IMG/VR virus record: IMGVR_UViG_3300048834_001358
Coordinates: 1-21,516 of that record
Length of the DNA: 21,516 bases
DNA from: a virus
Reading direction: 5' to 3' (one strand)
Both the position numbers and the translations under genes were made by a program. Below are positions 1,269-17,761 of this stretch, in pieces (positions within the stretch are counted from its first letter, which is position 1; every line of letters begins with the position of its first letter). The notes beneath the pieces are model-generated. The model did not search any database and was not told the origin of the DNA. It worked only from the letters and a program-made list of their open reading frames with translations.

Positions 1269-2039
1269 ATGGCACTGCAATCAGGAATCGAGTGGACTGA
1301 CGCGACCTGGAATCCAGTAACCGGCTGTACTCAAGTCTCAGCTGGCTGCGACCACTGCTATGCACTGACGTTTGCTGAGCGATTCCGCGGAGTCCCAGGA
1401 CACCACTTTGAGCAAGGATTTGATCTGCGCCTCTGGCGGGAACGACTTCTATTGCCGCTGCGCTGGAAGAAGCCACGACGCATCTTCGTGAATTCGATGT
1501 CGGACCTGTTCCATATCGGAGTCCCTGAGGATTTCATTTTGGAAGTGTTCGATACAATGGTTAGAGCAAACTGGCATACGTATCAGGTATTGACAAAACG
1601 CCCACAAAGGATGTATCGATTATCAAGTAAGCTCCCGTGGCCTCAGCACATCTGGCTGGGTGTGTCGATCGAATCGGATACGGTGGCGTGGCGCGCAGAC
1701 TTCTTGCGCCGCGTTCCGGCCGCCGTGCGCTTTATCAGTGCTGAGCCGCTTATTGGTTCGGTTAGCACCCTCGATTTAGAGGGAATCGACTGGATAATTG
1801 CGGGAGGGGAAAGCGGACACGGGCACCGGGATTGTAACGCGGACTGGGTGAGGGATCTTCGAGACAGGTGCCAAGAGGAGCGCGTGGCGTTCTTCTTTAA
1901 GCAATGGGGCGGCCGGACCCCAAAGATGGGCGGCCGCTTGCTCGACGGAAGAACCTGGGACGAGTACCCAACTCCACGATTGAGGAGTAAGGCGGATGCT
2001 GACCGAGTCGACATCAAAGGAGGACTTCTTTCAGTATAG
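1269..2039 (+). CDS. DUF5131 / phage Gp37-Gp68 three-Cys-motif protein (radical-SAM-like)
   Basis: 256 residues with a GGGAGG-type site before the ATG. The N-terminal block WNPVTGC...GCDHCYA gives Cys20-x6-Cys27-x2-Cys30, the three-Cys motif of this family, which resembles the iron-sulfur cluster loop of radical SAM enzymes with a longer first spacing. Other family hallmarks follow in order: NSMSDLFH (75-82), LTKRP (108-112), WLGVSIE (129-135), FISAEPLIG (155-163), IIAGGESG (176-183, glycine-rich) and FFFKQWGG (208-215). Length and motif order look complete. Its 3' end overlaps tcmP by 44 bases, the known family pairing, so the two probably act together. Substrate and reaction are not established; nucleic acid modification is a guess from the fold. 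Codon use is less GC-biased than in the structural genes, suggesting separate acquisition. Confidence 0.92.
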   Translation: MALQSGIEWTDATWNPVTGCTQVSAGCDHCYALTFAERFRGVPGHHFEQGFDLRLWRERLLLPLRWKKPRRIFVNSMSDLFHIGVPEDFILEVFDTMVRANWHTYQVLTKRPQRMYRLSSKLPWPQHIWLGVSIESDTVAWRADFLRRVPAAVRFISAEPLIGSVSTLDLEGIDWIIAGGESGHGHRDCNADWVRDLRDRCQEERVAFFFKQWGGRTPKMGGRLLDGRTWDEYPTPRLRSKADADRVDIKGGLLSV

Positions 2040-3138
2040 GCGCCCTTGGTCGGCGATTAAGCACCGCATTCTGTCGAAGTATGTTGATGCCTATCTAAGG
2101 ATTCGAGGAGGAAGTCAGCCCGAGATTGTGTTCTTGGATGCTTTCGCGGGAAGTGGAGGGTACGGTCCCGATCCGGACTCCCAGGTCGCTGGCTCACCGG
2201 TACTGGTAGCTCGGCTCGCGCAGGAGCGGAAAGAGAAGGGGCTTCAGAACCGGTTCTTTGCCATCTATACGGAAGAGAACAAGGCTAATTACGAGCGCCT
2301 AAAGCGTGCGCTCCAGCCCTTCGATGATGATCTCTACAGGGTGTTCCACGGTCGGTTCCAGGAGCATATCTCCCAAATCCTTGAGCTCATGCATCAAAGT
2401 CCGGCCATTTGCTTCCTTGATCCATTCGGAGTTGAGGGCATATCTCCACGCGATATTGGGGCGCTGGGAGAGAGGGCCGATACTGAATTCATGCTCATTC
2501 TGCATGTCGGCAGTCTTCGACGCCTGGCCGGCTTCGAAGATAGCATGGCGCCTGACGCCCGTGAAAAGATACGACTCGTATCTGAAGTATTAGATGAAGA
2601 TCCAGACAGTCTCTCTCCCAAGTGGTTGGGCGCCTTTCGCTCACTCAATACCGACGAGTGGGAGAAGTGGGTAGTTGACCGGTATATCAGCAACTTGCTG
2701 AAACGAAGCCCCGACCTTCAGTACGCTTGCAGCTACCCTGTGCGAGAAGCCTACAATAGCCGACCTAAGTATTACTTCATCTTTGCCAGTAGAGCCCCAT
2801 ATGGAGTCGTTCCCCTAAACGACATTTGTGCTGCCGAGGAGGAAGAACTCTTTCAAACTATCGCGAGTGTCCGCCGAGACATGCCCACACAAATGTCGCT
2901 GTTCGCCGCGCCAGACCCCAACGCAAAGGCAGAGGATGAGATCGTACGTCGCATCAAGGGAGAGCTCGAGAGGTATCCGAGCCTCCCGCGCCGAGAGTTG
3001 GTACTTCGGCTCTGCTATGCGAGTTTTGGAGAGCATAGGCGCAAGGTGTATCACAAAGCGATCAATTTGATGATCGATAGCCAGATCATCACCAAGGGCC
3101 CGGGGCCGATCGACGAAGCTCTCCTCACCCTTACATGA
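1996..3138 (+). CDS. tcmP: Three-Cys-motif partner protein TcmP
   Basis: 380 residues. The ATG at 1996 lies inside the end of the DUF5131 gene in another frame, with GAGGAG eight bases upstream, so translation is probably coupled. The N-terminus (WSAIKHRILSKYVDAYLRI, 18-36) is typical of the family. FLDAFAGSGGYG (46-57) looks like methyltransferase motif I and CFLDPFGVEG (139-148) like motif IV, suggesting a Rossmann-type SAM-binding fold. YYFIFASRAPYG (259-270) is another conserved-looking block. Residues about 315-380 resemble a winged helix (PRRELVLRLCYASF...KAINLMIDSQII) that could bind nucleic acid. TcmP is known as the regular genomic partner of three-Cys-motif proteins; what the pair does is not established. 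The gene has markedly lower GC than the capsid and tail genes, which fits a mobile cargo cassette. Confidence 0.9.
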   Translation: MLTESTSKEDFFQYRRPWSAIKHRILSKYVDAYLRIRGGSQPEIVFLDAFAGSGGYGPDPDSQVAGSPVLVARLAQERKEKGLQNRFFAIYTEENKANYERLKRALQPFDDDLYRVFHGRFQEHISQILELMHQSPAICFLDPFGVEGISPRDIGALGERADTEFMLILHVGSLRRLAGFEDSMAPDAREKIRLVSEVLDEDPDSLSPKWLGAFRSLNTDEWEKWVVDRYISNLLKRSPDLQYACSYPVREAYNSRPKYYFIFASRAPYGVVPLNDICAAEEEELFQTIASVRRDMPTQMSLFAAPDPNAKAEDEIVRRIKGELERYPSLPRRELVLRLCYASFGEHRRKVYHKAINLMIDSQIITKGPGPIDEALLTLT

Positions 3139-10455: not shown

Positions 10456-10995
10456 ATGGGACAGGCAGAGATCGCACGAGGTCTGGGCGACCTCCAGGTG
10501 GCGCCGCTGACCGGCGCCGATGTGGTCGGCTCCTGGGTCGATTGCCCCGGCGCCCGCTCGCTCGCCTTCAACGTCTCCTCGGACTCCGACGAGCTGGAGG
10601 GCGACAACAGCATCATCGCCAAGGTCCGCAATCCGAAGTCGCTCACCGGCTCGATCGAGATCGGCCAGATCAACCTGGCTGCCCTGGCCGTGCTCCTCGG
10701 CGGGCAGGTCGAGACCGAGGACGTGGGCGAGAACTCGGTCACCCGCCTGAAGGAGTCGGCCGGCATCGGCACCAGCTTCTACCGCATCTGCGGTCAGGCC
10801 CCGGGTGTCGACGTGGAGGGGAGCGCCTACCGCGCCACCATCCTGAAGGCGCTCACCACCACCGGTCTCGACGAGACGATGGAGGTCAACGCCTGGAACA
10901 CCCCGACCCTCGACTTCGAGGGCCTGAACTCGGGTGGCTTCCTGCTCATCCGCGAGCAGTACGAAGAGGAGGTCGCGCTGCCCCCGGCAGCCTAG
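10456..10995 (+). CDS. Major tail (tube) protein-like
   Basis: 179 residues with AAGGAG seven bases before the ATG. The product is beta-rich with features of siphophage tail tube proteins: GSWVDCPGARSLAFNV near the start, a charged loop (DSDELEGDN), then KSLTGSIEIGQINLAALAVL (61-80), and a late domain EVNAWNTPTLDF. Its placement directly before the tail assembly chaperone and tape measure genes is the standard siphophage order. A hairpin follows its stop codon, as is common after highly expressed structural genes. Confidence 0.72.
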   Translation: MGQAEIARGLGDLQVAPLTGADVVGSWVDCPGARSLAFNVSSDSDELEGDNSIIAKVRNPKSLTGSIEIGQINLAALAVLLGGQVETEDVGENSVTRLKESAGIGTSFYRICGQAPGVDVEGSAYRATILKALTTTGLDETMEVNAWNTPTLDFEGLNSGGFLLIREQYEEEVALPPAA

Positions 10996-11140: not shown

Positions 11141-11905
11141 ATGTCGCAGTCGCAGTATCAGGCGTACAAGGCCCAGCGCTGGGCCGAGCAGCAGGCCCGC
11201 GAAGCCCAGGAGGCCGAGCAGGCGGTCCACGCCCCCTACCTCGGCCCCGAGCCGGTCTCCCCGGTGGCCCCCAAGGCGCCGGTCTCCCCGGCCCCCCGCG
11301 GTCCCAAGCGGCTCGACCCCGCCGCGCTCCGCCGCCGCCGCCAGACCCGCGAGGCCGGCTTCGACTTCACCCTGGAGACCACTCTCGACGACGACGGCAA
11401 TCCCTCGGTCGTCCGCGCCCGCCTCCCGAACCTCCTCGACGCCTCCTCCCTGGCGACCCTGCCGGCCGACATGCGCCGCGAGGTGTTCCAGATGATCGAG
11501 CAGGTGGAGACCCTGGAGGGGAACGGGCAGGGCAGCGGCTTCGGCGATCTCGTCGACGGCATGTCGAGCGATCAGCTCGCGGACGCCTTCGGCGCCATCG
11601 CCTCGGTCGTCGACGCCTACTGCGTGATCGGCTTCGTCGAGCCCCGCTGCTACGCCACCGAGGAGGAGGCCGACGAGCAGGGCGGCGCCTGGGTCGCCGA
11701 CATCGAGTTCGCCGACCGGATGGCCTTCTTCAACTACTGCTCGGCCCGGCAGAAGGGGGCCAGCGCGACGGTCACCCCCTTTCCTGACGGCCGACCGCTA
11801 CCTCCTGTGGGAGCTGGACCGGCTGATTCGGCGGTATCCGGGGCTGGTCAGCCCGAGCACGGTGCTCCGGCTCAATCGCCGGCTGCAACGGGAGGGGCTG
11901 GATGA
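11141..11905 (+). CDS. Tail assembly chaperone, short (gpG-like) product
   Basis: 254 residues. ATG at 11141 is preferred over the upstream ATG at 11099 because GGAGG lies about eight bases before it. A charged, Pro-rich N-terminus (1-70) precedes the chaperone-like core, with DFTLETTLDDDGN, LPADMRREVFQMIEQVE and a helical block to about residue 208 (ADRMAFFNYCSARQKG). After the CCC-TTT-CCT run at codons 213-215 the zero frame turns into low-quality Pro/Gly/Ala sequence and stops, whereas the +1 frame continues as good protein. This is the organisation of lambda gpG/gpGT-type genes just before the tape measure, where a fraction of ribosomes shift frame. Confidence 0.75.
   Translation: MSQSQYQAYKAQRWAEQQAREAQEAEQAVHAPYLGPEPVSPVAPKAPVSPAPRGPKRLDPAALRRRRQTREAGFDFTLETTLDDDGNPSVVRARLPNLLDASSLATLPADMRREVFQMIEQVETLEGNGQGSGFGDLVDGMSSDQLADAFGAIASVVDAYCVIGFVEPRCYATEEEADEQGGAWVADIEFADRMAFFNYCSARQKGASATVTPFPDGRPLPPVGAGPADSAVSGAGQPEHGAPAQSPAATGGAG
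11775..11784 (+). other. Candidate programmed frameshift site, +1 or -2
   Basis: Zero-frame codons are ACC-CCC-TTT-CCT-GAC. A +1 slip of the tRNA from CCC to CCT, or from TTT to TTC (better cognate for tRNA-Phe), moves into the frame that reads FLTADRYLLWEL and then runs to 12239. A -2 slip on the five-C run (CCC back to CCC) would enter the same frame. The slip joins two chaperone halves into a predicted 365-residue protein for either +1 option. Confidence 0.6.
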
Positions 11906-12239
11906 GGAGGCCGCGGCGGCGGTCTGCCTCGACTTCGACCTGGCCGTCGCCGGCTTCGGCGCCTGGGTTGAGCGGCGGCTGAAGGAAACCCGCGAGGTGC
12001 CGCTCCCCCGCAACCAGAAACCGAAACCGGTCAAGCACGTTCCCAAGTACCCGCAGCTCCGCGCCGCGCTTGGTCTCCACGATGACCCGGCGCCGGCCAC
12101 AGCCAAGCCCAGCCGCAAGCGGGCCGTACCGCCCGGAGGGCGGACCAAGACGACCAAGGCGATCGATCAGAAGGTCGACCAGCTCCGGCGCGATCCCGCC
12201 GCCCTGGCCGACTTCCTCCGTCTCGACGGAGACCCCTAG
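11781..12239 (+). CDS. Tail assembly chaperone, frameshift-extended (gpT-like) part
   Basis: About 152 codons in the +1 frame relative to the gpG-like gene. An internal GTG at 11862 exists, but the good protein sequence begins well before it (TADRYLLWELDRLIRRYPG), with no start codon or ribosome site there, so it is read best as a frameshift extension. The sequence has a helical first half (DEEAAAAVCLDFDLAVAGFGAWVERRL) and a basic second half ending with ALADFLRLDGDP. In known phages the extended product binds the tape measure protein while the short product coats it during tail assembly. The stop is 41 bases before the tape measure start. Confidence 0.7.
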   Translation, partial: FLTADRYLLWELDRLIRRYPGLVSPSTVLRLNRRLQREGLDEEAAAAVCLDFDLAVAGFGAWVERRLKETREVPLPRNQKPKPVKHVPKYPQLRAALGLHDDPAPATAKPSRKRAVPPGGRTKTTKAIDQKVDQLRRDPAALADFLRLDGDP

Positions 12240-12280: not shown

Positions 12281-15200
12281 ATGAGTGCCAACCTCGGCTC
12301 GGCGTCGGGCAGCATCCACCTGGAGGTGGCCCAGGCCCGGCAGAACGTCAAGGCCCTCGCTGGCGACCTTCGTAACTTCACCGGCCAAGTCGGCAGCGGC
12401 TTCGGCGGGGCCAGCGCCTTCATCGACCAGCACGAGCAGTCGATCCGCACGGTCGGCCTGGGGCTGACCGGCCTCGGCACGATTCTCTCCGGCCTCTTCG
12501 GCGCCGGCGTCTGGAACGCCGCCAACGTCGAGGAAGCCTTCTCGATCATGCAGGCCGGCACCGGCGCCACCGGGGCCGAACTCGACAAGCTCCAGCAGAA
12601 GGCGCTCCAGCTCGGTAAGGACACCTCCTTCTCGGCCACCGAGGCCGCGCTCGCCATCACCGAACTCGGCAAGGCCGGCATGCCGGTCGAGACGATCCTC
12701 AACGGCGCCGCCGACGCGGTGGTCAACTTGGCCGTGGCCGGCGAGATGGATCTCACCACCGCCGCCAACCACCTGACCGCCGCCATGAACCAGTACGGCC
12801 TCTCGGCCGACCAGGCGGTGATGGTCACCGACACCCTGGCCCGCGGCGCCGCCGTCTCGACCGCCGACATCGGCGACCTGGCGGCCGGGCTCGGCTTCGT
12901 CGGCACCACCGCCAACCAGCTCGGGATCTCCCTGCCCCACACGACCGCCGCGCTGGCTGCTCTCAACGACCAGGGCGTCCGTGGCTCCCGGGCCGGCACG
13001 AGCCTCAACCAGATGCTGACCAGCATCATCAACCCGAGCCAGAAGGCATCCAGGGTGATGGACCAGCTCGGGTTGAGCATGGGCGGCACCTTCGAGCTGA
13101 TCGACTCCCAGACCGGGCAGATGAAGTCGCTGCCCGAGATCATCTCCAATGTCCACGAAGCCACCAAGGATCTGACCGAGTCGGAGCGCCAGCGCTACAT
13201 CAACCAGATCTTCGGCGAGCAGGGCGGCCGCGCCATGAACGCGCTGCTCCAGACCCAGACCGAGGAGGCCCGCGAGGCCGGCAAGGCGTGGGAGGACTAC
13301 GAGGAGGGGGTCGAGTCGGGCACCACCGCCGCCGAGAACGCGTCCGCCAAGATGGACAACCTGAAGGGCGATCTCGAACAGCTCAAAGGCGGGCTGGAAA
13401 CCCTCTCCTATACCGCCATGAAGGCGTTCCTGCCCGCCTTCCGGGCGGTCGTGCAGGCGCTCGACGGCGTCCTCTCGGCCATCATCGGCCTGCCGCCCGG
13501 TCTCCAGGCGGTGATCGCCGGCCTGATCGGCCTGGTCGGCGTCCTCTCGCTCGGCGCGGGCGGCTTCCTACTGATGCTCCCCCGCATCAACGACACGATC
13601 AAGGCGTACAAGGCGCTGCGGGTCGCGTTCCAGGCCACCTCGCTCGGCAGCAAGGGGCTCAGCGGCTCCCTGCGGGGCCTCAGCGTCGCCCTGCGCGGGC
13701 TGATCGCCGCCCACCCGGTCCTCTTCGCCGTGATGGCGGTCGCCGCCGCCCTGATGCTGGCCTACAAGACCAACTTCCTCGGCTTCGGCGACGCGGTGCG
13801 CAAGGTCGCCGGCTTCATCCGCGACTTCGTGACGAACGTGGTCGAGGGGTTCCGGACCTTCCGGCAGAACACCGACGCTCTCACGGCCGGGCTGGTGGCG
13901 ATCGGCTACGCCCTTAACCTGGCCGGGTTCACCGACTTCGGCGCCAAGGTCTCCGCCTTCGCCGGCAAGATCCGCGAGCTGATCGAGCTGTTCCAGTTCA
14001 TGGAGGGGATGGCGAAGCTCGGCGGGCTGCCGGGGATGGCCGCCCGCTACCGGGCGCTCGGCGCGGTGATCGAGCACCTGACCGGGCTGCCGGTCGTCGA
14101 GATGTTCACCGCCATCGGGGCCGGGATCGACCGGACGGTGGCCGCGGTGCGCAAGATCATCGCCGGCTTCCGGGAGATGGCCGGCGCCCTGCTCGACGGC
14201 AACTGGTCGAAGGCGCTGAAGAAGTTCCAAAAGTTCATCGCCGGGCTCGGCGACCTGCTCGGCGCCCCGGCCAAGTTCATCGGCCAGTTCCTGAAGTCCA
14301 TCAAAACCGGCTTCAAACCGCTCGACAAGGTGCTCTCCAACCTCGGCAAGGTCTGGGTCGACTTCGGCCGCCTGATCCAGGAGGTCTTTCAGGGCGACAT
14401 CAAGGGCGCCCTGGAGGTCGGCAAGCGGCTGCTGCGTCACTTCGCCGACTACCTCCTCTCGCTCGGCCCGCTAATCTGGGAGGGGGCCAAGGCGATCGGC
14501 CGGCTGCTCGTCGACGCCTTCCAGGCGATCGATTGGGGCGCGGTCGGGCGCTTCCTGCTCGACGGTCTGAAGTCGGCCATCGTCGAACTGCGGGAGGTCG
14601 GCTCGGCGATCGGCGACGCCGCGAGCGGGCTGTGGGACTGGATCACCGACTCGATCGGCGACATTGATTGGGGCGGGGTCAGGGATACCCTCCGCAGCGC
14701 TCTGGAGCGGGCCATCTCCGGCCTGTCGGCCGCGCTCGATTGGGTGCTGGAGACCGGCGTCCCGGCCATCGCCGGCTGGATCGTCGACATCGCCGGCGAT
14801 GTCTGGGGCGGCCTGAAGGCGTTGGCCGGCTGGGGCGCCGGCGCCGTCTCCGGCGTCATCGACCTGGCGCTCTCGGTCCTCGACACCCTGGCCGAGACGG
14901 TGCTCTCCGGCTTCGCCTCGGCCAAGGACTGGCTGATCGACAAGCTCCCCTGGCTGGAAGGCCCGCTCGGCGCGGCCGGGGAGCTGCTGTCGGGCGCCTT
15001 CGACCTGACGATGAACGTCGCCGGCAAGGTGGCGAGCACCCTCTCCGACGCCTGGTCGTCGGCCAAGAGCCTGATCTCGTCGGTGTTCTCCTGGCTCGGG
15101 GACTTCTTCGGCATCTCCGACGCCGGCGAGGCGGGCGAGGTCGCCGCCAAGGCGGCCAGCGCCGGCTTCGATCTCGCTTTCAACCTGGCCGGCCAGTTCC

Positions 15201-17761
15201 TCTCCACGCTGTCCGACGCCTGGTCGTCGGTGACGAGCCTGATCGGCTCGGCCGCGTCCTGGATCACCGGCTTCTTCGGGATCTCCGACGCGGGCGAGGC
15301 GGCCGAGGCCGCGACCAAGGCGGCGAGTGGCGGCTTCGATCTCTCCTTCTCGCTGGCGGGGAGCATCCTCTCCACCCTGTCGGACGCCTGGTCGTCGGTC
15401 GGCAGCCTGATCAGCTCGGTCGCCTCCTGGGTGACCGGCTTCTTCGGGATCGGCGATGCCGGCGAGGTGGCGGCCAGCGCGATCAAGAGCGCCAGCAGCG
15501 GCTTCAGCCTCTCCTTCCGCTTGATGGGGAGCCTGATCAGCTACCTCAGCGACGCCTGGTCGTCGATCACCGGCCTGATCGGCTCGGTTGTGAGCTGGCT
15601 GGCCGACTTCTTCGGCATCACCGACGCCGGCGAGGTGGGCGAGACGGTGGTCAAGAGCGCGGCGGCGATCTTCTCCTTCACGACCAAGATCCTCGGGTCG
15701 GTGGCGAGCTACCTCGGCGAGGGGTGGTCGTCGGTCGGCGATCTGGTCAACAAGGCGGCCCACTGGATCTCCGACTTCTTCGGGATCAAGAGCGCGAGCG
15801 ATCTCGGGCAGACCGTCGAGAAAACCGCCACGGCCGCGCTCACCCTGGCGGCCGAGTTCAAGGACGACATCACCGACAACCTCGATTCGGCCTGGGATAG
15901 CGTCACCTCGCTCGTCGGCTCGGTCGGCGGGGTGGCGAAGGATCTGGTCGACGACGCCTGGGGCGGGACGAAAAAGGTGGTCGAGTCGACCGTCGACCTG
16001 GTGGTCACGGTCACCGGCTCGGTCGCCAACGCGATCGACGGCGGGCTGGACTGGCTGTTCGGCGGCGGCGGCAGCGAGGGCTCTCCGGCCGTCTCGCTGG
16101 AGACCCGGCTCAACGAGGTCGCCACTGCCATCGAGACCGGGATCGCCCGGATCGCCGAGGCGTTCGCCGGCTTCGACGCCACCGGCGCGGTCACCGAGCT
16201 GAACGCCAAGCTGGTCGGGGCGCTCGACGGCATGAGCGGCGACTCGATCGGCTCGGCCGCGAAAGCCTGGGTCGCGCGGGGCCTCGCCAAAATCGGGGAG
16301 GGGATCACCAGCGACTCGCTGATGACGATCCCGCGCTCCCTCGACACCGCGCTGCTCGGCGCCTTCGCCGGGATGAGCGGCGACTCGATCAGCGGCGCCA
16401 TCAAGGGCTGGATGACCCGGGCGGTCGGCCTGGCCGTCGCCGAGATGACGGGCCACGGCCTGGCCCTGGCCCGCGGGTTCGACACCGCGGCCGGCGCCGG
16501 CTTCGGGACGCTCTCGGGCGAGTCGCTGAGCGGCGGCATCAAGGGGTGGCTGGCCCGCGGCGTGACGCTGGTCGTGACCGGGCTGACCGTGCTCGGCACC
16601 TCGCTCGCCATCGCCCTCGACACCGCGGTCGGAGCCGGGCTCGGCACCCTCTCGGGCGAGAGCCTGAGCACCGGCATTCTGGCCTGGGTGGTCCGCGCCG
16701 TCGCCCTGACCGCCTCCCTGCTCGTCCCGCTCGGCACCGCCCTGGCGGTCGCCACCGACACCGCGGCGAACGCCGGGTTCGGCACGCTCTCGGGCGAGTC
16801 GCTGTCCGGGGCGCTGGTCGCCTGGCTCGACCGGGCGCAGGCCTTCGCCAGCGCCGCCATCGACATGACGACCCTGGCGACCGGGACGGCCACCAAGCTC
16901 CAGAGCGCGATCGGGCCGGAGCTGACCCGGATCACGACCGGCTTCCGCACCTTCGCCACCAACGTCACGACCGAGATGCGGAAGCTCCAGACCAACGCGA
17001 CGCGGGAGATGACCACCGCGGCGACCAACCTCCGCCAGCGGGCCAACACCGCCCGGACCGATGTCCAGTCGGCCTTCCGCGGCATCGAGTCGGCGGCCCG
17101 GACGATGGCGAGCAACGTCAGCCGGGAGGCGTCCCGGGCCGGCAGCGATCTCGCCAGCCAGCTCCGCAACGGCGCCAACCAGGCCCGCACCGCGATGTCG
17201 ACCGCCATGAACGAGATCGTCGGCATCGTCCAGAACGCGGCGGGGCGGATGCGCTCGGCCGGCTACAGCGTCGGCGCGGCGGCCGGCGACGGCGTGGCCG
17301 CAGGGCTGAACGCCTCGCTCGGCGGGGTCCGCTCGGCGGCGAACGCCCTGATCGACGAGGTCGACCGGGCGATGCGGGCCAAGGCCCAGATCGCCTCGCC
17401 GTCGAAGCTGACCACCTGGATCGGCCAGATGCTCGGCGAGGGGCCGGCAGTCGGCATGCTCTCCAGGCTGCGCGACATTCGCCGGGCGGCCGAGGCGGTG
17501 ATCGACGCCGCCATCCCGGCCTTCAACCCGGCCGCGCTCGACCCCGGCTTCGGCCGCTACATCGAGGACCAGCTCGCCCGCCAGCGCTGGATGACGGCGG
17601 GGCTGGGAGCGAGCGGACCGGGGGCGGGACCGACCATCGGTACCCAGCAGATCGAGATCAATGTCACCCAGGCGCCGGGCGAGGATGGCGAGCAGTTCGC
17701 CAGCCGCGTCGTCTCGCTCCTGGTCGATGCCTACAACGGCGTGAATGGATTGGGGGTTTAG
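12281..17761 (+). CDS. Tape measure protein
   Basis: 1826 residues; AAGGAGG lies eight bases upstream. The N-terminal 350 residues match the TP901-type tape measure core: a Gly/Ala-rich helical start, AANVEEAFSIMQAGTGATGAEL, DTSFSATEAALAITELGKAG, and the IFGEQGGRAMNALL motif. Two hydrophobic stretches, about 410-436 and 478-497, could cross the host membrane during DNA entry. Residues about 923-1207 hold six copies of a 56-residue unit with SDAWSS and FFGI; residues about 1317-1517 hold a second array with a 46-residue unit built on SGESLS. The C-terminus has the usual KAQIASPSK...GEGPAVGM segment. At roughly 1.5 angstrom per residue the tail would be about 270 nm. The protein sets tail length and is ejected ahead of DNA. 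Confidence 0.92.
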   Translation: MSANLGSASGSIHLEVAQARQNVKALAGDLRNFTGQVGSGFGGASAFIDQHEQSIRTVGLGLTGLGTILSGLFGAGVWNAANVEEAFSIMQAGTGATGAELDKLQQKALQLGKDTSFSATEAALAITELGKAGMPVETILNGAADAVVNLAVAGEMDLTTAANHLTAAMNQYGLSADQAVMVTDTLARGAAVSTADIGDLAAGLGFVGTTANQLGISLPHTTAALAALNDQGVRGSRAGTSLNQMLTSIINPSQKASRVMDQLGLSMGGTFELIDSQTGQMKSLPEIISNVHEATKDLTESERQRYINQIFGEQGGRAMNALLQTQTEEAREAGKAWEDYEEGVESGTTAAENASAKMDNLKGDLEQLKGGLETLSYTAMKAFLPAFRAVVQALDGVLSAIIGLPPGLQAVIAGLIGLVGVLSLGAGGFLLMLPRINDTIKAYKALRVAFQATSLGSKGLSGSLRGLSVALRGLIAAHPVLFAVMAVAAALMLAYKTNFLGFGDAVRKVAGFIRDFVTNVVEGFRTFRQNTDALTAGLVAIGYALNLAGFTDFGAKVSAFAGKIRELIELFQFMEGMAKLGGLPGMAARYRALGAVIEHLTGLPVVEMFTAIGAGIDRTVAAVRKIIAGFREMAGALLDGNWSKALKKFQKFIAGLGDLLGAPAKFIGQFLKSIKTGFKPLDKVLSNLGKVWVDFGRLIQEVFQGDIKGALEVGKRLLRHFADYLLSLGPLIWEGAKAIGRLLVDAFQAIDWGAVGRFLLDGLKSAIVELREVGSAIGDAASGLWDWITDSIGDIDWGGVRDTLRSALERAISGLSAALDWVLETGVPAIAGWIVDIAGDVWGGLKALAGWGAGAVSGVIDLALSVLDTLAETVLSGFASAKDWLIDKLPWLEGPLGAAGELLSGAFDLTMNVAGKVASTLSDAWSSAKSLISSVFSWLGDFFGISDAGEAGEVAAKAASAGFDLAFNLAGQFLSTLSDAWSSVTSLIGSAASWITGFFGISDAGEAAEAATKAASGGFDLSFSLAGSILSTLSDAWSSVGSLISSVASWVTGFFGIGDAGEVAASAIKSASSGFSLSFRLMGSLISYLSDAWSSITGLIGSVVSWLADFFGITDAGEVGETVVKSAAAIFSFTTKILGSVASYLGEGWSSVGDLVNKAAHWISDFFGIKSASDLGQTVEKTATAALTLAAEFKDDITDNLDSAWDSVTSLVGSVGGVAKDLVDDAWGGTKKVVESTVDLVVTVTGSVANAIDGGLDWLFGGGGSEGSPAVSLETRLNEVATAIETGIARIAEAFAGFDATGAVTELNAKLVGALDGMSGDSIGSAAKAWVARGLAKIGEGITSDSLMTIPRSLDTALLGAFAGMSGDSISGAIKGWMTRAVGLAVAEMTGHGLALARGFDTAAGAGFGTLSGESLSGGIKGWLARGVTLVVTGLTVLGTSLAIALDTAVGAGLGTLSGESLSTGILAWVVRAVALTASLLVPLGTALAVATDTAANAGFGTLSGESLSGALVAWLDRAQAFASAAIDMTTLATGTATKLQSAIGPELTRITTGFRTFATNVTTEMRKLQTNATREMTTAATNLRQRANTARTDVQSAFRGIESAARTMASNVSREASRAGSDLASQLRNGANQARTAMSTAMNEIVGIVQNAAGRMRSAGYSVGAAAGDGVAAGLNASLGGVRSAANALIDEVDRAMRAKAQIASPSKLTTWIGQMLGEGPAVGMLSRLRDIRRAAEAVIDAAIPAFNPAALDPGFGRYIEDQLARQRWMTAGLGASGPGAGPTIGTQQIEINVTQAPGEDGEQFASRVVSLLVDAYNGVNGLGV
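15047..15940 (+). repeat. 168-base tandem repeat array A in the tape measure gene
   Basis: The phrase encoding SDAWSS or its variant recurs at 15047, 15215, 15383, 15551, 15719 and 15887, each exactly 168 bases apart. Later copies are more diverged. Each unit encodes SDAWSS, a hydrophobic segment with Trp, FFGI, then DAGE and an amphipathic helix. A more degenerate copy with changed length may precede 15047. Confidence 0.85.
16229..16830 (+). repeat. 138-base tandem repeat array B in the tape measure gene
   Basis: Units beginning at the codons for GMSGDS or TLSGES start at 16229, 16370, 16508, 16646 and 16784. Spacing is 141 bases, then exactly 138 three times. The unit encodes SGES-type turn, a Trp-containing helix, a hydrophobic helix and LDTA/FDTA followed by GAGFG. 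The sequence is unrelated to array A. Confidence 0.82.

Follow-up and report, generated by a model that had tools for sequence, protein, structure and literature searches.

A conserved TTT_C as the probable +1 frameshift site of a phage tail assembly chaperone lineage

The window analysed here is a single metagenomic viral record of 21,516 bases. It carries a two-frame gene at 11141-12239 (the window gene), in which two conserved halves lie in different, overlapping frames and the second half has no start codon at the junction. Comparison of the window gene with 26 relatives (27 genes, 18 distinct site contexts) showed that all 27 have TTT in frame 0 with C as the next base, and that no other stretch is invariant. 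This conservation makes it very probable that TTT_C is a genuine signal rather than a quirk of a single sequence. On this comparative evidence, it is highly likely that a +1 frameshift at UUU_C by peptidyl-tRNA-Phe yields a 254-aa short chaperone and a 365-aa fused chaperone.

Architecture of the window gene

The window gene lies between genes for a major tail protein and a tape measure protein (Table 1), and the same gene order was found in all annotated phage relatives. Its upstream half matched PF24117 (DUF7391) weakly, with 23.2 bits (E 6e-5) where the curated cut-off is 27 bits. The match to phrog_4336, a tail assembly chaperone family, was weak as well (E 0.005); both matches agree with the position of the gene. 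Contig relatives, including L014 and L011, also showed weak PF24117 matches under the cut-off. Cultured relatives with the same architecture matched PF24117 with 139-154 bits and had strong phrog_4336 matches too. Structure predictions of the two halves were of low confidence (pLDDT 43 and 60).

Frame 0 has no stop between ATG 11141 and TGA 11903, and the +1 frame has none from after TGA 11625 until TAG 12237. A frameshift between the two had been proposed in the first-pass annotation, which pointed to a C5T3C2 run at 11775-11784 and assigned the downstream half to the +1 frame. The run has these coordinates, the +1 frame ends at TAG 12237, and the two-frame arrangement is more than chance, since it recurs, with a downstream offset of +1, in each of the 26 relatives. 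In the run, frame-0 codon ACC (11774-11776) is followed by CCC, TTT and CCT. Reading TTTC as a single Phe step gives a fusion of 365 residues, and the downstream +1 protein starts F(11781)-L-T-A-D-R; the unshifted product has 254 aa. The junction peptide VTPFLTADR, given earlier for a +1 shift, agrees with the frames read here.

Table 1. Features of the tail chaperone locus in the window
Feature	Position	Strand	Remarks
Major tail protein	10456..10995	+	directly 5' of the window gene; phrog_4971, E 2.4e-16
gpG-like upstream half of tail assembly chaperone	11141..11782	+	frame 0; 214 aa to the slip Phe
E-site codon CCC	11777..11779	+	CCG, ACG, GAC, CGA, CAG or GCC in relatives
Putative slip site TTT_C	11780..11783	+	UUU 11780-11782 to UUC 11781-11783; in 27/27 related genes
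T-like downstream half	11781..12239	+	+1 frame; F-L-T-A-D-R to TAG 12237
Unshifted A-site codon CCT	11783..11785	+	rare Pro codon (11/267); shifted A-site codon is CTG, common
Frame-0 tail of short product	11783..11905	+	40 residues past the slip Phe; stop TGA 11903
GGTATCCGGGG block inside the overlap	11833..11843	+	TAT CCG GGG invariant in 7/7 of the window group
Tape measure protein	12281..17761	+	directly 3'; 1826 aa; PF10145, E 1.8e-48; phrog_1533, E 1.3e-84

An offset of this kind could arise from a sequencing or assembly indel or from gene decay, and the window is a single metagenomic record. However, the same offset and site occur in 26 other genes, many of them from cultured, finished phage genomes. 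This extremely unlikely explanation is refuted by the comparison with the relatives.

Two other features of the window were observed. The translated tape measure protein contains several repeats of ~50 residues of the type STLSDAWSS...SWxxxFFGIxDAGE. At 1269-3138, a DUF5131 gene (PF07505, E 4.6e-96) overlaps a 380-aa ORF without a Pfam match, which may resemble a three-Cys-motif partner protein (TcmP).

Conservation of the site among relatives

The 26 relatives comprise metagenomic contigs and cultured phages of Mycobacterium, Gordonia and Nocardia. The contigs were reached through the two chaperone halves and the major tail protein. tblastn of either half, or of the halves of divergent relatives, against cultured phages gave no match; the cultured phages were linked through the major tail protein (~25-31% identity to Mycobacterium phages), and a further search from Troll4 led to the Gordonia Lambovirus phages and Nocardia phage P3.1. 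The upstream half is 40-86% identical in contig relatives; L012 is about 40% identical. Identity of the downstream half is 59-81% in close relatives and 28% in L012. When the window group and the Mycobacterium group were compared as profiles, the probability was 39-45%, which is suggestive only. Genome scans found the module on one MAG contig only, and PF24117 had no other occurrence in 395 genomes of that contig's class; thus, sequenced host chromosomes of the class do not commonly carry the module. L021, a 5.2-kb contig with the phage module, was binned with a Microbacterium MAG; it could be viral and binned there in error, so that its host is uncertain.

On either side of the invariant TTT_C there is variation, in the preceding codon and at positions 2 and 3 of the following one. 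The window reads ACC CCC TTT CCT GAC; its contig relatives read ACC CCG TTT CCT GAC (L004 and L009), AAG CCG TTT CCT GAC (L005 and L006), AAA CCG TTT CGT GCA (L012), GCG ACG TTT CCT GCA (L021), AGT CAG TTT CTG GAC (L014) and AAC GCC TTT CGC CCT (L011). Among Mycobacterium phages, Papyrus, Indlulamithi, Fowlmouth, Troll4 and Hawkeye have CCG, CCC or ACG followed by TTT CGC GAA, and Cuke has ACA CCC TTT CGC AAC. Gordonia phages have GAC TTT CGC GAA, and Nocardia phage P3.1 has CGA TTT CCT GGA. No second in-frame TTTC was found within the shift region of any of the 27 genes. The window gene has one in-frame TTTC, versus 6 in the 5819 codons of the other window genes.

The first-pass annotation had offered three slips at ACC-CCC-TTT-CCT, on TTT-C, on CCC-T and by -2 on the five C, and had looked to relatives for conservation of the C5T3C run. 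The run is not kept: the 26 relatives retain TTTC, most of them without a preceding CCC, so neither the CCC-T slip nor the -2 slip on five C is needed. Of the three slips, only that on TTT-C allows re-pairing (UUU to UUC) in all members.

A +1 slip of tRNA-Pro from CCC to CCU (11777-11780) would resemble the proline sites of Listeria phage PSA, which makes a +1 shift on a proline codon (PMC5009743), and CCC_T is present in four members (the window, Indlulamithi, Fowlmouth and Cuke). We consider this reading distinctly unlikely, since CCG in the closest relative (L004) and in L005, L006, L009, L012 and Papyrus would make the tRNA land on CGU, other relatives carry ACG, GAC, CGA, CAG or GCC at this position, and there is no adjacent stop such as that of the PSA tail gene. 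Because slips at CCC-T and TTT-C give an identical junction peptide, mass spectrometry alone cannot separate them.

A -2 slip, as in phage Mu, would yield the same final frame. GenBank describes the gene of Send513 (L044, NC_042033.1, 15923-17030) as a 'G/T-like -2 frameshift', and the cluster N phage Fulbright is also described as -2 (PMC7975880). Send513 (GAA CCG TTT CGC) and most relatives, however, lack a P-site codon able to re-pair two bases back; such re-pairing is allowed only by the C5 run of the window and, with wobble, by the ACC CCG of L004 and L009. Send513 itself has TTT_C, and a 2012 paper named Mu as the one natural -2 case then known (PMC3498833). A -2 slip is therefore very unlikely.

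Slippage of the polymerase on C5T3, instead of the ribosome, would make use of the short homopolymer run at the site. The longest run in the relatives is at most four, and a C5T3 run is too short for polymerase slippage; the probability of this explanation is close to nil.

The downstream half might also be translated alone, without any fusion, from GTG 11862 in the +1 frame by coupling or reinitiation, and the records of Gordonia phages and of some Mycobacterium phages annotate the halves as separate genes. The earlier annotation had named relatives lacking the run but keeping both halves with a separate start as evidence against a frameshift. Relatives without C5 do exist, but the +1 protein is conserved from its first post-slip residue, at TTC and ahead of any usual start; it begins with FLT-DR in the window group and with FAK(N/D)(R/K) in Mycobacterium phages. 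In close relatives, the 27 codons before GTG 11862 are 78-88% identical in the +1 frame, which has no ATG, GTG or TTG between the slip and 11862. The FAK...RPS stretch of the Gordonia and Mycobacterium phages is conserved 5' of their annotated start. Separate translation is thus very improbable, and a ribosomal +1 slip at TTT_C remains the preferred reading.

The position of such a slip is further limited by a TGA in the +1 frame, located 9-12 nt 5' of the shifted TTC in 13 genes (exactly 9 nt in L004, L005, L006, L009 and L012), which confines the shift to the last few codons at TTT. As a negative control, the chaperone of phage Charlie (cluster N; L050 3037-3943) has a net +1 offset and no in-frame TTTC. 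TTTC is therefore not general to +1-offset chaperones and is specific to this lineage.

TTT is a minority Phe codon in these genomes, often below 15%. In the window its share is 12% (23/194); most contig relatives have 3-12% and most cultured phages 5-27%, e.g., 1/36 in L012, 9/99 in Troll4, 5/109 in Hawkeye and 2/45 in the tape measure gene of L004. The Papyrus and Fowlmouth groups, whose GC content is lower, use it more often, with 45% in Fowlmouth. The product of the TTT fractions over 12 genomes is 3e-13, a value that is overstated because close relatives are not independent and that includes an L004 figure from an out-of-frame reading. Since the relatives share ancestry, 27/27 does not represent 27 independent events; by judgement, not from a tree, there are about ten groups. 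With that number, the invariance of TTT is, on codon frequencies, still far from chance. The T of TTT is not explained by the +1 protein alone, because the post-slip Phe is placed by either frame.

Proposed mechanism and known frameshift systems

In the proposed mechanism, most ribosomes would remain in frame 0 and synthesize the 254-residue G-like chaperone. At low efficiency, P-site peptidyl-tRNA-Phe would move from UUU to UUC, i.e., by +1, and reading would continue in the +1 frame to TAG 12237 to give the 365-aa fusion. Both Phe codons are read by tRNA-Phe, with UUC preferred over UUU (PMC3498833), and in bacteria +1 shifts have been described as particularly likely at UUU_Ynn (PMC5009743). 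In the window, the slip may be helped by the rare CCT in the unshifted A site and the common CTG in the shifted frame. CCT is replaced by CGC, CGT or CTG in some relatives, and CGC is a common Arg codon in several of them; thus, a hungry A-site codon is not a general requirement. Pseudoknot-free folding of the RNA 3' of the site gave widely spread z-scores (+1.6 to -3.2) and no common structure, inspection of the site contexts by eye revealed no conserved upstream Shine-Dalgarno-like element, and no tRNA genes were found in the 21,516-base window.

A close parallel in function is lambda G/GT, which shares the gene position, a short and a fused chaperone from one start, and the inferred role (PMC5009743). 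In lambda, the short form coats the tape measure protein and the fusion recruits the tail tube protein (PMC5009743). By analogy, the two products here would act in the same way, the fusion linking the tail tube protein to the tape measure protein. The signals differ: lambda shifts by -1 at a heptamer, whereas the offset is +1 in all members here, so that a lambda-type slippery heptamer does not apply, and the presumed shift is at UUU_C with a frame-0 overlap of 23-44 codons in nearly all.

A close parallel in signal is influenza A PA-X (UCC_UUU_CGU), in which the UUU_C slip has been documented by mass spectrometry and attributed to better pairing of tRNA-Phe with UUC (PMC3498833). The class of site represented by PA-X, UUU in the P site followed by C, is conserved in 27/27 genes, and L012 (CCG_UUU_CGU), the sole member with a CGU A site, has the same P- and A-site codons. 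The present sites differ in belonging to a bacterial virus and an unrelated gene, and in having a variable A site and a variable E site that is never UCC.

Listeria phage PSA and SPP1 likewise have +1 shifts in genes of the structural (capsid/tail) module (PMC3498833, PMC5009743). PSA slips on a proline codon beside a stop or pseudoknot; here, the codon before TTT varies and proline is not conserved, no stop is adjacent, and pseudoknot-free models revealed no conserved downstream fold. The -2 shift of phage Mu gpGT occurs in the same kind of gene and leads to the same net frame (PMC3498833), but -2 re-pairing is impossible in most members here, Send513 included. Mycobacterium phage chaperones (Papyrus, Fowlmouth and Troll4 groups) and those of the Gordonia Lambovirus phages have a related tail module, the +1 offset and TTT_C; they differ from the window gene in having CGC for CCT and an earlier frame-0 stop. 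The tail chaperone shift of haloarchaeal virus HSTV-2 has likewise been termed 'very likely +1' (PMC5009743).

The overlap and the meaning of the site

The frame-0 stop follows TTT by 40-44 codons in all relatives of the window group. It lies exactly 23 codons past the slip Phe in L022, L023, L025, L026, L033-L039 and L041-L045 (Mycobacterium and Gordonia phages), 26 codons past it in Indlulamithi (L024) and 33 in Nocardia phage P3.1 (L040). Comparison of the window gene with that of L009 revealed 21 differences in 41 overlap codons, versus 97 in 104 codons past the frame-0 stop and 136 in 163 codons upstream. The +1 frame is more conserved in the overlap than in the rest of the gene. Within the overlap, the invariant TAT CCG GGG is also read in frame 0 as GTA TCC GGG, encoding Val-Ser-Gly. 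Two codons that are otherwise in the minority, TAT (17/113 Tyr codons in the window) and GGG, are thus fixed in this block. The block suggests selection on the tail of the short form (dual coding) or on an RNA element.

The G/GT tail chaperone frameshift, +1 shifts in phage structural genes and the UUU_C slip of PA-X are already known. A +1 shift at UUU_C as a conserved tail-chaperone site was not found in the literature searched, of which Xu et al. 2004 was not a part. As judged from re-pairing, the '-2' label of Send513 in GenBank is unsupported by its sequence. The cultured phages Papyrus, Troll4 and Lambo are open to direct test. For the window gene, detection of the junction peptide GASATVTPFLTADR would support a +1 shift, and detection of GASATVTPPFLTADR would mean -2. 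The site also provides an annotation rule for such genes, which are now labelled as -2, as two genes or as hypothetical in public records.

We suggest tentatively, as a possibility that falls somewhat short of even, that a large tail-chaperone lineage has long used UUU_C as a minimal +1 recoding signal, one that needs hardly any support, or none, from RNA structure, rare codons or upstream elements, and that influenza PA-X represents the same solution; the frame-0 tail (23 or ~41 codons) may itself be selected, with the overlap under dual coding. The 18 natural sites, in which TTT_C alone is fixed, lend support to the UUU_C class of frameshift sites predicted by Firth et al. (PMC3498833).
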